A DNA stretch of 64,000 bases, from assembly GCA_029561455.1 (NCBI GenBank), contig JAKQIY010000065.1, positions 211,501 to 275,500 of the forward strand. The letters run 5' to 3'. Positions 34,008 to 38,810 of the stretch are shown piece after piece; position 1 is the stretch's first letter, and every line of letters starts with the position of its first letter. Made by a program: the position numbers and the translations under genes. Under the pieces are notes generated by a model, which did not search any database, was not told where the DNA came from, and saw nothing but the letters and a program-made list of their open reading frames with translations. This DNA comes from a bacterium. GTDB taxonomy: Bacteria > Zhuqueibacterota > Zhuqueibacteria > Residuimicrobiales > Krinioviventaceae.

Positions 34008-34036
34008 TTGACAATCTCTTAGTCAATTAGTATATT
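34008..34036 (+). promoter_or_regulatory. Sigma-70-type promoter of the first blaI gene
   Basis: TTGACA at 34008-34013 and TATATT at 34031-34036, separated by exactly 17 bases, a near-consensus housekeeping promoter. The start point is expected near 34043, inside the adjacent operator. Confidence 0.75.
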
Positions 34037-34052
34037 TACTATAGTTATAGTA
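34037..34052. promoter_or_regulatory. BlaI-type palindromic operator
   Basis: TACTATAGTTATAGTA is a 16-base dyad with TACTA/TAGTA half-sites, of the type bound by BlaI/MecI winged-helix repressors. It lies directly after the -10 box and over the expected start point, so binding would block transcription of blaI and the M56 gene (autorepression). Confidence 0.72.
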
Positions 34053-34078
34053 GATAAATGATAACCATAGGAGATACA

Positions 34079-34468
34079 ATGTCCATAAACGATAAACTGA
34101 CCCCTGTGGAATGGGAAATTATGGAAACCGTGTGGCAACTCGGCGGTTCGCCCTCGGTGCGCGATGTACTGGCAAAAGCCTACCCCGACAGCGAAAAAGC
34201 CTATACCACCGTACAGACCATTATGAACACCCTGGTTAAAAAAGGGCTGCTTATTTCACAAAAAATCGGACTGGTAAACTTTTACACTCCGGTAAAATCA
34301 CGCAATGACATGGTGCAATCGGAATTGAAAAACATGCTGTCGCGGGTATTTAACGGCTCGGCGCCGGCCATGGCTAATTACCTGCTCGATTCCCAGGACC
34401 TCAGTCTGGAAGAAATTCAAAAAATCAAAGACTTGCTTACCAAAAAAGCGCAAAAATTGCAGGATTAA
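34079..34468 (+). CDS. BlaI/MecI-family repressor, copy 1
   Basis: 129 residues. Winged-helix DNA-binding domain (LTPVEWEIMETVWQLGGSPSVRDVLAKAY, then TVQTIMNTLVKKGLL) and a C-terminal dimerisation tail with the usual cleavage/regulation region. Start at MSINDKL, preceded by GGAG. It should repress its own operon via the palindrome at 34037-34052 and be inactivated through the M56 protein encoded 16 bases downstream. The trigger need not be a beta-lactam, as no beta-lactamase is here. Nearly identical to the copy at 36173 (8 differences). Confidence 0.92.
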   Translation: MSINDKLTPVEWEIMETVWQLGGSPSVRDVLAKAYPDSEKAYTTVQTIMNTLVKKGLLISQKIGLVNFYTPVKSRNDMVQSELKNMLSRVFNGSAPAMANYLLDSQDLSLEEIQKIKDLLTKKAQKLQD

Positions 34469-34484
34469 CATTAAAGGATAAAAT

Positions 34485-36074
34485 ATGATCGCCTTTATAA
34501 ATTCGGTAGGGGAAATATGGCTTGACTATTTCGGCCTGGCGGTTTTACAGAACACATTGTTTCTGGGCTGCATTTTCCTGGCGTTTTATATCCTTAAAAA
34601 AGCTGATGCCCGCATAAAATACGCCCTGGGCGTTGTTGGTTTGATCAAACTGCTGCTGCCGCCATTCCTGCCCGCGTCGTTTCCTGTTGTAAACTATATC
34701 CCATCCGACGGCGCAATCACCATTAGCGACATGCAACCGGAACAAATACTAGTTACCAATGCCGGGCCATTCATTACCACAGCCGGAATTTTATTTTCCC
34801 TGTGGTTCATCACTAGCCTGATGTATCTTTTCATTGTTATCGTTTCCACCCTGGTCATACAAATACGTCTCAATTCCGCCCACAATCTGAGCGCCGCAAA
34901 TTATAAAAAAGTGCAGCTCTACCAGTCCGATAAAATTCCCGTCCCCATGAGTGTGGGACTCTTTCCGAATAAAATCTATCTGCCCTCCTACTGGCGTGAA
35001 CTGCCGCCGGAAGGGCAAAATGTGCTGTTGCAGCACGAACTGGCGCACATTGAGCGCCGCGACGGCCTGGTGTATCTACTGCAAACCATTGTCCAGGCGC
35101 TGTACTTTTTTCACCCCTTTGTGTGGCTGCTGAACGAAAGGATCAACGAATACCGGGAAATGGCCTGCGACGACCAGGCTATCCGGGATGCACAACTGAC
35201 GCCTGATAACTATTCCCGCTACCTCGTGCAGGTGGCGGAAAAGATCGTCGCACCGCAGTGGAGTTATGCTTCGGTTTCGGCGCTTGTAAAACAAAAAAAT
35301 AAACTACTAAACCGTGTAACATATCAACTGCAGGAGGCTGATATGAAACAACTCGCAAAACACAAAATAACAGTGGTCTTTGTCACGCTGTTCGCCCTTA
35401 TGCTGCCGCTGTCGTGGTACAGTATGGCGGAAAAAGCGGTAGTCCAGGACAAAAATCCGGTTGCCACAGCAACCGATCCGCAAGAGTTTGGTGAAATTTA
35501 TGGTGAAATCAGCGATGCCAAATCCGGTAATTACATTATGAGCGCGAGAGTCAGTCTGCCGGGTACAGAAATGGTCGTGGCAACGCATGATAAAGGTCAG
35601 TTTTTTATCGGTAACGTAACACCGGGTGTTTATCCTCTGGAAGTATCACGCGATGGATTCAAAAATAAAAAAATAGAAAATGTTGAGGTTTCAGCATTGC
35701 GAACGTCCAGAGTGGATATCAAACTGGAGCCGGTTCTAGTCAGTAATAAAACGCGCCTCCCTGAAGATTTTGTGCCTTATGATGTTGCTCCCGAACCGGT
35801 GGGGGGATTTAAAAAGATACAAAAAAACCTGGTTTACCCGCAATCGGCTTTAAAAGCCGGCATACAAGGTCGTGTAGTCGTCAATATTAATATTGATGAA
35901 AAGGGCCAGGTTGTAGATACAAAAATTTTAAAAAGTCTGAGTGAAGAGTGCGACCAGGCGGCCATTAATGCCATCAAAGCCGTCAAGTGGGAACCGGCTC
36001 TTCAAAAGGAAAAACCGGTAAAAGTTTGGATTGGTATACCGGTTGTTTTCAAAATAAAAAACAAGCCACTATAG
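34485..36074 (+). CDS. M56 (BlaR1-like) peptidase fused to CarboxypepD-reg and TonB C-terminal domains, copy 1
   Basis: 529 residues. Four N-terminal membrane segments surround the M56 metalloprotease core with HELAH (184-188) and the helix INEYREMACDDQA (220-232). A further membrane segment (about 292-312) leads to a carboxypeptidase-regulatory-like domain (about 338-415) and a TonB C-terminal domain (about 440-525, YPQSALKAGIQGRVVVNINIDEKGQVVDTKI). M56 proteins cleave BlaI-type repressors on signal. The sensor is replaced by a TonB domain, suggesting coupling to outer-membrane receptors. An internal AGGAGG-ATG at 35332-35345 may start a separate TonB-like product. Confidence 0.87.
   Translation: MIAFINSVGEIWLDYFGLAVLQNTLFLGCIFLAFYILKKADARIKYALGVVGLIKLLLPPFLPASFPVVNYIPSDGAITISDMQPEQILVTNAGPFITTAGILFSLWFITSLMYLFIVIVSTLVIQIRLNSAHNLSAANYKKVQLYQSDKIPVPMSVGLFPNKIYLPSYWRELPPEGQNVLLQHELAHIERRDGLVYLLQTIVQALYFFHPFVWLLNERINEYREMACDDQAIRDAQLTPDNYSRYLVQVAEKIVAPQWSYASVSALVKQKNKLLNRVTYQLQEADMKQLAKHKITVVFVTLFALMLPLSWYSMAEKAVVQDKNPVATATDPQEFGEIYGEISDAKSGNYIMSARVSLPGTEMVVATHDKGQFFIGNVTPGVYPLEVSRDGFKNKKIENVEVSALRTSRVDIKLEPVLVSNKTRLPEDFVPYDVAPEPVGGFKKIQKNLVYPQSALKAGIQGRVVVNINIDEKGQVVDTKILKSLSEECDQAAINAIKAVKWEPALQKEKPVKVWIGIPVVFKIKNKPL
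35332..35345 (+). promoter_or_regulatory. Internal ribosome-binding site and ATG in the M56-TonB gene
   Basis: AGGAGG (35332-35337), a 5-base spacer and an in-frame ATG (35343). The polypeptide that would start here (residue 287 of the full chain) opens MKQLAKHKITVVF, a short basic segment then one membrane helix, then the regulatory-like and TonB domains. The same site is conserved at 37407-37420 in copy 2. Confidence 0.6.
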
Positions 36075-36114
36075 TCCCTAATCCATCCTAAAACTCCGGT
36101 CAGGGAGTAAGAAG

Positions 36115-36142
36115 ATTACTGTTAATTTCATGTACCAGTAAT
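36115..36142. promoter_or_regulatory. Inverted repeat between the two duplicated units
   Basis: ATTACTG (36115-36121) and CAGTAAT (36136-36142) are perfect arms 14 bases apart, 31 bases before the second blaI. It is not the TACTATAG-type operator of copy 1, and no good promoter precedes it, so copy 2 may depend on readthrough or on a different signal. Confidence 0.4.
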
Positions 36143-36172
36143 TAAAAATTTATGAAAACCTTTGGAGCAATA

Positions 36173-36562
36173 ATGTCTATTACCGATAAACTGACCCCCG
36201 CCGAATGGGAAATTATGGAAACCGTGTGGCAACTCGGCGGTTCGCCCTCGGTGCGCGATGTACTGGCAAAAGCCTACCCCGACAGCGAAAAAGCCTATAC
36301 CACCGTACAAACCATTATGAACACCCTGGTTAAAAAAGGGCTGCTTATTTCACAAAAAACCGGACTGGTTAACTTTTACACTCCGGTAAAATCACGCAAT
36401 GACATGGTGCAATCGGAATTGAAAAATATGCTGTCGCGGGTATTTAACGGCTCGGCGCCGGCCATGGCCAATTACCTCATCGACTCCCAGGACCTGAGTC
36501 TGGAAGAAATCCAGAAAATCAAAGACCTGCTCAACAAAAAAGCGCAACAATTAGAAGGATAA
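36173..36562 (+). CDS. BlaI/MecI-family repressor, copy 2
   Basis: 129 residues, start at MSITDKL with GGAG upstream. Differs from copy 1 at only about eight positions, mainly at the ends (for example V10 to A, I63 to T and the last residues), with nearly identical DNA through the middle. DNA-binding helices are unchanged, so it should recognise the same operators. It is 3 bases upstream of the second M56 gene. The pair arose by tandem duplication of the whole unit. Confidence 0.92.
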   Translation: MSITDKLTPAEWEIMETVWQLGGSPSVRDVLAKAYPDSEKAYTTVQTIMNTLVKKGLLISQKTGLVNFYTPVKSRNDMVQSELKNMLSRVFNGSAPAMANYLIDSQDLSLEEIQKIKDLLNKKAQQLEG

Positions 36563-36565
36563 AAT

Positions 36566-38137
36566 ATGATACCTTTTATAAATAACATCGGGGCGCTTTG
36601 GTTCGAATATTTCGGACTGGCGGTTCTGCAAAACACGCTGTTCCTCGGTTTCGTTTTCCTGGCTTTTTATCTATTAAAGAACGCCGATGCCCGCATCAAG
36701 TTCTCGCTAGGTGTGGTGGGACTGGTCAAGCTGTTGCTGCCGCCATTCCTGCCTGCTTCATTTTTCCCCGCTTCTAACCCGACCGGCGCTTTCATAATTG
36801 GCGACCTGCAATCCGGACAGGCGGTAATCACCACTTCCGCGCCCATGCTATCGACTACCGGCATTCTATTCAGCCTATGGATAATTACCATATTCATCTA
36901 TATCGCTATTGCCATGATTTCCACACTTGTTATGCTAAAGCGGCTCGGCTCCGCTCATCATCTACCTGCGGCAAGTTTTCACAATATTAAACTGTACCAA
37001 TCCGCCAACATAGTCGTCCCCATGAGTTTGGGACTGTTTCCGAATAAGATCTACTTGCCCTCCTACTGGCACGAACTGCCGCCGGAAGGACAAAATGTGC
37101 TGTTGCAGCACGAACTGGCGCACATTCAGCGCCGCGACGGACTGGTGTATCTACTGCAAACCATTGTTCAGGCGCTGTACTTTTTTCACCCCTTTGTGTG
37201 GATGCTGAACGAAAGGATCAACGAATACCGGGAAATGGCCTGCGACGACCAGGCTGTCCGGGATGCGCAACTGACACCCGATAACTATTCCCGCTACCTC
37301 GTGCAGGTGGCGGAAAAAATCGTCGAACCACAGTGGAGTTATGCTTCGGTTTCGGCGCTTGTAAAACAAAAAAATAAACTACTGAACCGTGTAACATATC
37401 AACTGCAGGAGGCTGATATGAAACAACTCGCAAAACACAAAATAACAGTGGTCTTTATCACGCTGTTCACCCTCATGCTGCCGCTGTCGTGGTACAGCAT
37501 GGCGGAAAAAGCGGCGGACCAGGACAAAAAACCGGTCACAGCCGTAGATCAACAAAATACCGGCAAAATCTTTGGCGTAATCAGCGACGCCAAATCCGGC
37601 AAATTTCTCGTCGGCGCCAAAATCACGCTGGCGGGTACAGAAATAATTCTGGCATCAGACAGCAAAGGCCAATTTTTTATCAGTACCGTTCCGCCGGGTG
37701 TTTATACCCTGGAAGTAGCGTGTGAGGGTTTTATTGGTAAAAAAGTGGAAAATGTCCGTGTGGCTGTAATGCAAACATCACAGGTGGATATCAAGCTGGA
37801 ACCTGGTACTGACAATGACAAGAACGCGCCGCCGCCCCCGCCATTGCCATTTGATGTTGCCCCCAAGCCGGTAAAAGGCTTTGAAGAACTGATGAAAAAT
37901 GTTGGGTATCCGGAATCTGCTCTTAAAGCCGGCATAGAAGGCAAAGTGCTTGTCAACGTATTATTTGATGAAAAAGGCAATATTGTAGAGACAAAAATTG
38001 AAAAGGGCCTGAATGAAGATTGCAACCAGGCAGCCATCAATGCCATTAAAGCCGTCAAGTGGGATCCGGCCATCAAAGACGGCAAGCCGATAAAAGTATG
38101 GCTTCACATACCCATTATTTTCAAACTGCAAAATTAA
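36566..38137 (+). CDS. M56 (BlaR1-like) peptidase fused to CarboxypepD-reg and TonB C-terminal domains, copy 2
   Basis: 523 residues with the same architecture as copy 1: N-terminal helices, HELAH, EYREMACDDQA, internal membrane helix, regulatory-like domain and TonB C-terminal domain (YPESALKAGIEGKVLVNVLFDEKGNIVETKI). The M56 core and following helix are almost identical to copy 1 in DNA, while residues about 65-155 and the C-terminal third have diverged; a PPPPPLP linker is added before the TonB domain. The mosaic suggests gene conversion or selection for different sensors on a shared protease. The internal AGGAGG-ATG is kept at 37407-37420. Confidence 0.87.
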   Translation: MIPFINNIGALWFEYFGLAVLQNTLFLGFVFLAFYLLKNADARIKFSLGVVGLVKLLLPPFLPASFFPASNPTGAFIIGDLQSGQAVITTSAPMLSTTGILFSLWIITIFIYIAIAMISTLVMLKRLGSAHHLPAASFHNIKLYQSANIVVPMSLGLFPNKIYLPSYWHELPPEGQNVLLQHELAHIQRRDGLVYLLQTIVQALYFFHPFVWMLNERINEYREMACDDQAVRDAQLTPDNYSRYLVQVAEKIVEPQWSYASVSALVKQKNKLLNRVTYQLQEADMKQLAKHKITVVFITLFTLMLPLSWYSMAEKAADQDKKPVTAVDQQNTGKIFGVISDAKSGKFLVGAKITLAGTEIILASDSKGQFFISTVPPGVYTLEVACEGFIGKKVENVRVAVMQTSQVDIKLEPGTDNDKNAPPPPPLPFDVAPKPVKGFEELMKNVGYPESALKAGIEGKVLVNVLFDEKGNIVETKIEKGLNEDCNQAAINAIKAVKWDPAIKDGKPIKVWLHIPIIFKLQN

Positions 38138-38194: not shown

Positions 38195-38810
38195 GGATGG
38201 GGGTCTTTTATAATCATTATAAAATCTAAAATATTAGCCGCTCTTGATAGAATCCACGATACCTATATAACAAATACCCTATCGTGCTTTTTGAATGATG
38301 GGGTATCTGCAATGCCGTGAATTCATATACTTTGATCCGGTGCGACGAATCCTAATCCGCCAAATTACCGAAAAAACCCCATCCTACCGGCTTGAATGAT
38401 GGGGTATCAACAATATCGTGAATTTCATATACCTTGATCCGGCGTAGCGAATCTTAATCCGCCAAATTACCGAAAAGACCCCATCCTACCCTTTGTCACC
38501 CCACTTGTAGGATAGGGTCTTTTATAATCATTGAAAATCTAAAATATTGACCGTTATTGAAAAAATCCATGATTCAAACAATACAGATACCCCATCGCAC
38601 TGCTTGATGCTTGAATGATGGGGTATCTGCAATGCCTTGAATTCATATACTTTGATCCGGTGCGACGAATCCTAATCCGCCAAAATACCGAAAAGACCCC
38701 ATCCTACCGTCTAAATTGATGGGGTATCTGTATTGTCTTGAATTTCTTGTATTGTAATTCAATGCGTCAAAATTATATCATGCAAATTACCGAAAAAACC
38801 CCATCCTACC
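38195..38810. repeat. Cluster of six ~90-bp repeat units in both orientations
   Basis: Units at about 38297-38389, 38398-38490, 38617-38709 and 38718-38810 begin GATGGGGTATC and end ACCCCATCCTACC. Units at 38195-38283 and 38508-38596 are inverted (starting GGATnGGGTC with TTTTATAATCATT, ending ATACCCCATCG or similar). Unit ends are mutually complementary (GATGGGGT/ACCCCATC), so each can fold into a long hairpin. Interiors share words such as TTGATCCGGTGCGACGAATC. No coding frame is supported. Confidence 0.8.

Follow-up and report, generated by a model that had tools for sequence, protein, structure and literature searches.

Can a gene for a BlaR1-like membrane protease also encode, from a start codon in its own interior, a second and free-standing envelope protein? 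The question is raised by a stretch of 64,000 bacterial nucleotides (contig JAKQIY010000065.1, positions 211,501 to 275,500; hereafter the window), which carries two BlaI-M56 gene pairs in tandem at 34.0-38.1 kb. In each pair a gene of the BlaI type (Pfam Penicillinase_R) lies 5' of a gene whose product belongs to the M56 family; the Peptidase_M56 domain (Pfam E=6e-29) has its HEXXH zinc motif in the form HELAH, with H184, E185 and H188 invariant in our alignment. A first-pass annotation of this DNA had described in both M56 genes an AGGAGG, a 5-base spacer and an in-frame ATG, and the positions it gave for the latter, 35343 and 37418, are exact; the regulatory-like and TonB domains that it saw downstream are CarboxypepD_reg and TonB_C in Pfam, in addition to Peptidase_M56. 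The best overall explanation, which we hold with considerable confidence on comparative grounds, is a genuine, selected internal start that gives two products in a modular design.

The internal ATG is codon 287 of a 529-codon open reading frame (ORF) in copy a (35343-35345) and codon 285 of a 523-codon ORF in copy b (37418-37420); in both it is in frame and separated by CTGAT from the Shine-Dalgarno (SD) hexamer AGGAGG (Table 1). The string AGGAGGN5ATG occurs three times in the window against 0.30 expected from shuffles. With the SD baseline for ordinary genes drawn from the window, these two sites have the strongest SDs among the 243 internal in-frame Met codons of its long ORFs (-10.3 kcal/mol; the next is -8.2), and they exceed the SDs at the M56 genes' own starts (-5.4 and -5.5). 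An internal promoter producing a short transcript was also considered and rejected, as a consensus scan, the only search made for one, found no promoter-like site close 5' of either internal ATG.

The first-pass annotation had taken the presence of the motif in both copies as evidence of conservation. This argument fails. The tract that spans the internal start (34957-35436) matches copy b at 88-100% (about 97%), whereas its flanks mostly show 60-75% DNA identity, and a 72-bp perfect match between the copies covers the site itself. The repressor core at 34109-34374 is likewise about 97% identical to its copy b counterpart (copy b from 36152), which suggests that the tandem BlaI-M56 pairs are mosaics formed by repeated gene conversion. 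Because gene conversion or a similar process would account for the agreement at the site, which lies inside such a tract, the two copies are not independent evidence and the argument from them carries little weight.

We therefore collected 213 M56 proteins that reach the TM4 region (TM, transmembrane helix). Of these, 155 come from what we call the focal groups: the window's phylum and the groups to which two genomes labelled Neomarinimicrobiota and Latescibacterota belong. The other 58 are from further bacteria and from plasmids. Our strict test called for an ATG in frame and no more than a few codons from the aligned position, together with an SD of dG<=-6. In the focal groups an in-frame ATG is found at this zone in 101 of the 155 proteins and is preceded by such an SD in 83 of the 101 (82%), compared with 6% of 1631 control internal Met codons (Mann-Whitney p 3e-48). 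The SD frequency is 78% after thinning at 60% identity and 75% after thinning at 45%, and the site is the gene's best SD-preceded internal Met in 58 of 74 genes at the first level (8.2 expected) and 37 of 51 at the second (5.7 expected). Absence of the motif from orthologues whose codons could vary had been named by the first-pass annotation as a point that would tell against it; in these orthologues the motif is retained. The site is not universal across the M56 family, a reading ruled out by the homologues from other phyla and plasmids, only 5 of 58 of which pass, and by the Bacillota BlaR1 proteins examined, none of which has the SD-ATG before TM4.

Some homologues carry the site in altered form. 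In a set of TonB-type proteins of the Latescibacterota group (L147, L152-L155 and L169) either ATG or GTG stands at the internal position behind the same AAGGA(G/T), as expected if both codons can serve as a start; GTG is also the commonest Val codon in that set. L032 and L033 keep an SD-like sequence at the site with no ATG, and are possibly recent losses of the internal start. Three split genes (L131, L177 and L128) were considered as natural experiments and set aside: their stops lie midway through the peptidase domain or their frames are scrambled, which suggests decay or assembly error and makes them uninformative.

A conserved motif inside a coding region may owe its existence to the peptide: KE..M before TM4 would be kept for protein reasons and its codons would resemble an SD by accident. 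The peptide is indeed partly ancestral, KE being common at this position and S. aureus BlaR1 having IKEANL there. However, the BlaR1 of Staphylococcus warneri, with IKEANL at the site, spells it with AAA GAA and TTG and contains no AAGGAG, whereas in the focal groups the Lys of a Lys-Glu before the site Met is AAG in 36 of 36 cases (29% in the same-gene background, p 8e-20) and the Glu is GAG in 33 of 36 (35%, p 2e-12). The SD is also held with other peptides, since its core occupies all three codon phases (49, 20 and 8 cases; KE.., KGE.., QEA.., RGD..). When the seven codons 5' of the site were replaced by synonymous ones at each gene's own codon usage, the recoded SDs were weaker than the real ones (combined p 2e-16; 4.5e-14 and 1.3e-9 after thinning at 60% and 45%). 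AGGAGG is depleted within coding sequences in 175 of 187 genomes (PMC5100845), and its retention at this site is therefore the more notable. The peptide explanation is already contradicted by these codon data and we consider it extremely improbable; as far as comparative analysis can establish it, a selected SD-ATG unit at this place is established.

The unit also bears the signatures of translation initiation. Of the SD hexamers at the site in 109 non-redundant focal genes, 50 have an in-frame ATG 2-11 nt further on, 5 have no ATG there and not one has an ATG out of frame, while control positions of the same genes yield an in-frame SD-ATG in 4 of 1991. The spacing peaks at 5 nt and is mostly 5-8 nt, and the median SD strength is -8.7, against -8.6 for candidate N-terminal starts in these ORFs. 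The mRNA around the site folds weakly (-7.8 versus -13.0 kcal/mol at control Met codons), codons 2-6 after the ATG are rich in A (0.45 versus 0.26), and Lys directly follows the Met in 31 of 82 cases versus 8% of controls; the differences in structure and A content persist when the comparison is with the same position of homologues that have no Met there. A link between ribosome pauses and SD-like sequences within genes is discussed in PMC5100845, and the sequence here directly precedes a TM helix; it might thus slow ribosomes so that the protease domain folds before TM4 is inserted, with no second protein made. Yet a programmed pause needs no ATG, let alone one in frame after 50 of 55 hexamers, out of frame after none and mostly 5-8 nt away, and M56 proteins with other C-termini, which share the same folding problem, are without the SD. 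We regard pausing as quite improbable and consider it very likely that ribosomes initiate here, giving a second protein anchored by TM4.

What would this second protein be? In a profile alignment to S. aureus BlaR1 (E=7e-11), Met287 falls opposite approximately Leu303, just before TM4. The helix that follows aligns with BlaR1 TM4; it thus belongs to the ordinary M56 fold and is no N-terminus peculiar to TonB. The predicted short products have a hydrophobic stretch about 6 residues after the Met (mean peak hydropathy 2.0), and each is predicted to be a type II membrane protein consisting of TM4 and all of the periplasmic domains. As the short form would lack both the protease and the helix that supplies BlaR1 Arg294 to the partner active site, it should be non-catalytic. 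An AlphaFold model of the full-length protein has a helix at 291-322 with low confidence and pLDDT <50 for most of 255-333; given the poor modelling of this region, the break that it shows in a helix near 287 was not used as evidence. In S. aureus BlaR1 the bond cut by self-cleavage is Ser283-Phe284 (PMC9834060), about 20 residues upstream of the Met287 equivalent, and a cut of this type would release almost the same fragment. Self-cleavage might thus make the C-terminal half as in BlaR1 and leave the internal start redundant or minor, an account that we find very improbable, for it does not explain the selection on synonymous sites. Self-cleavage and internal initiation may coexist.

The site goes with particular C-terminal domains. 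Among the focal homologues the strict test is passed by 62 of 83 proteins with TonB_C, 13 of 22 with M23 and 5 of 5 with ExbD/TolR, that is 80 of 110 with these C-termini compared with 2 of 41 with others (Fisher p 7e-15). In the genome studied here it is present in the two TonB copies and in an M23 paralogue (L006), and is missing from three paralogues with GyrI-like or unassigned C-termini. Its occurrence in M56 proteins with M23 and ExbD C-termini rules out a TonB-specific reading as a general explanation. Since TonB, ExbD/TolR and many M23 proteins naturally cross the membrane once and carry an outer domain, the topology of the predicted short forms makes sense. In the focal groups M56 is commonly fused to a single M23 peptidase domain or to two (L006, L098, L105, L127, L102 and others), and M56-ExbD/TolR fusions are seen in L081, L087, L161, L162 and L168.

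Several observations weigh against a selected, domain-linked internal start. The strict test is failed by 21 of 83 TonB-type and 9 of 22 M23-type focal homologues; some of the failures have GTG or weaker AAAGGA SDs, and others are truly without the site (for example L031, L070 and L071). Phylogeny confounds the link with domain type. On a rough FastTree tree of 160 M56 domains the start trait changes 19 times, with gains and losses inseparable, and leaves about 12 well-supported independent contrasts, for which a sign test is not significant; the contrasts run in the same direction (about 3.4 for and 0.3 against) and are too few for significance. Sequence that is A-rich, Lys-rich and weakly structured is partly expected before any TM helix, and the named relatives are metagenome assemblies.

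We propose that on the blaI-M56 mRNA the M56 start would yield the full-length sensor-protease (TM1-3, the cytoplasmic HEXXH domain, TM4, and periplasmic CarboxypepD_reg and TonB_C), and that independent initiation at the internal ATG would yield the 243-aa (copy b, 239-aa) protein of TM4 and the periplasmic domains. The full-length protein would sense via its tethered outer domain and cleave BlaI, and the free copy would act in an envelope task as a working effector or partner subunit. The arrangement would be modular, in that M56 proteins with an outer domain of the single-pass envelope type (TonB_C, M23, ExbD/TolR) would provide tethered and free copies from one gene. The division of labour itself, with the tethered copy sensing and the free copy performing the envelope task, is plausible but a conjecture, to which we give a little less than even credence. 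Similarly tentative is the broader idea of a cross-phylum architecture in which an envelope domain is made twice, so that a regulator senses its target through a copy of the protein it controls. The start may also be real and serve another function, the short form hetero-oligomerising with the full-length receptor as a subunit or decoy that tunes or inhibits signalling. BlaR1 is a domain-swapped dimer (PMC9834060), and Spa33-FL assembles with Spa33-C, itself the product of an internal start, into a functional 1:2 complex (PMC4832279), and both facts favour such an association; the link with TonB_C, M23 and ExbD and the near absence from other C-termini fit an effector role better, and we consider a subunit or decoy a close, slightly less probable alternative.

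The first-pass annotation had gone further, stating that the internal product looks exactly like an independent TonB and that one gene may make both a full-length protein and a free energy transducer. Production of two proteins from one gene is strongly supported by the synonymous, spacing, frame and start-context signatures. The C-terminal domain is very TonB-like: it matches TonB structures in the PDB (E=1e-8) and shares 67% identity across 99 residues with a stand-alone, ExbD-linked TonB from this genome, for which reason energy transduction by the TonB short form is possible, as a conjecture. The likeness does not extend to the helix, which is TM4 of the M56 fold. E. coli TonB has an SxxxH-type motif in its TM helix for coupling to ExbB/ExbD, and the absence of His and of any SxxxH motif from TM4 (ITVVFVTLFALMLPLSWYS) argues against an energy transducer, although this is weak evidence because the TM helix of the genome's own stand-alone TonB is also without His. 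Neither ExbB nor ExbD genes adjoin the M56 genes, the ExbD genes lying on another contig, and the same site accompanies M23 and ExbD/TolR domains.

Comparison with known systems places the locus as follows. Like BlaR1 and MecR1 (S. aureus structures 8EXP-8EXT), the window proteins are M56 proteins with HEXXH, an adjoining BlaI repressor gene and a TM4 followed by an outer C-terminal domain. That domain is CarboxypepD_reg plus TonB_C instead of a penicillin-binding sensor, and the SD-ATG conserved here before TM4 is a further difference from the Bacillota BlaR1; by domain content they are M56 family members and not BlaR1-type beta-lactam receptors. Shigella Spa33-FL/Spa33-C (PMC4832279) and Salmonella SsaQ offer the same economy, one gene whose internal ribosome-binding site and start yield a free C-terminal domain beside the full-length fusion, and both Spa33 forms are needed for function (PMC4832279). 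These, however, are ring proteins of secretion systems, from an unrelated family and with no change in membrane topology, and the Spa33 start is GTG. Ribo-RET has likewise revealed N-terminally truncated products in E. coli and Salmonella (for example from mrcB, clpB, arcB and infB; PMC11005335), some of them membrane proteins; those starts are experimental and from model enterobacteria, whereas ours rest on comparative evidence in M56 proteins of little-studied phyla. The stand-alone TonB mentioned above belongs to an ExbD-ExbD-TonB-TonB cluster (L003/L004) and differs from the window proteins in its N-terminus and TM helix, in a Pro-rich spacer replacing CarboxypepD_reg and in its ExbD-adjoining genes.

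In-frame internal starts are thus already known as a kind (PMC11005335, PMC4832279); in the open-licence literature we found no report of one in M56/BlaR1 proteins or M56-TonB fusions, and the present case appears to be new. Such starts usually surface singly, in model bacteria and by ribosome profiling, while this one emerged from comparative genomics alone, is conserved across several bacterial groups and is tied to particular domain architectures. If it is real, annotations of this M56 subset omit a second protein. It also offers a testable idea for BlaR1-like proteins without a penicillin-binding domain, namely that envelope machinery (TonB, peptidoglycan hydrolase, ExbD/TolR) is coupled to a protease-repressor switch.

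Table 1. Features of the two BlaI-M56 pairs (window coordinates).
Feature	Position	Strand	Basis
Sigma-70-like promoter TTGACA-17-TATATT (11/12 match), 5' of operon	34008..34036	+	consensus scan only
BlaI/MecI-type repressor a	34079..34468	+	Pfam Penicillinase_R E=5e-28
M56-CarboxypepD_reg-TonB_C protein a, full-length, 529 aa	34485..36074	+	
Tract nearly identical to copy b, spans internal start	34957..35436	+	blockwise identity
Internal Shine-Dalgarno AGGAGG, copy a	35332..35337	+	kept in homologues
Predicted second product a: ATG 35343, 243 aa (short basic tail, TM4, CarboxypepD_reg, TonB_C)	35343..36074	+	
TM4 helix, residues ~291-322, M56 fold; signal anchor of predicted short product	35355..35450	+	profile alignment to S. 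aureus BlaR1
CarboxypepD_reg, copy a	35496..35729	+	Pfam E=6e-13
TonB_C, copy a	35826..36056	+	Pfam E=8.5e-21
BlaI/MecI-type repressor b	36173..36562	+	Pfam E=6e-29
M56-CarboxypepD_reg-TonB_C protein b, full-length, 523 aa	36566..38137	+	
Internal Shine-Dalgarno AGGAGG, copy b	37407..37412	+	
Predicted second product b: ATG 37418, 239 aa	37418..38137	+	
CarboxypepD_reg, copy b	37568..37801	+	Pfam E=2e-15
TonB_C, copy b	37901..38128	+	Pfam E=6e-17

The remaining features of the locus are minor. The ORF of repressor a opens at 34058, but the SD sits at ATG 34079 (-7.3 versus -0.4 at 34058); that of repressor b opens at 36152, and its SD belongs to ATG 36173. The promoter-like site 5' of the first repressor gene belongs to a class of sigma-70-like matches that does not clearly exceed shuffle expectation. 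Its -10 is overlapped by a dyad, TAGTATATTTACTA (34018-34060), which is possibly a BlaI operator. No Rfam element was found. Among named relatives the nearest is L050, a genome of candidate division KSB1 (56% identity), grouped in the same genus. Finally, the region 3' of copy b (38201-38810) contains imperfect intergenic direct repeats, a 67-nt unit present four times and a larger 141-nt unit present twice, and this cluster carries the motifs GGGGTATC and ACCCCATCC.

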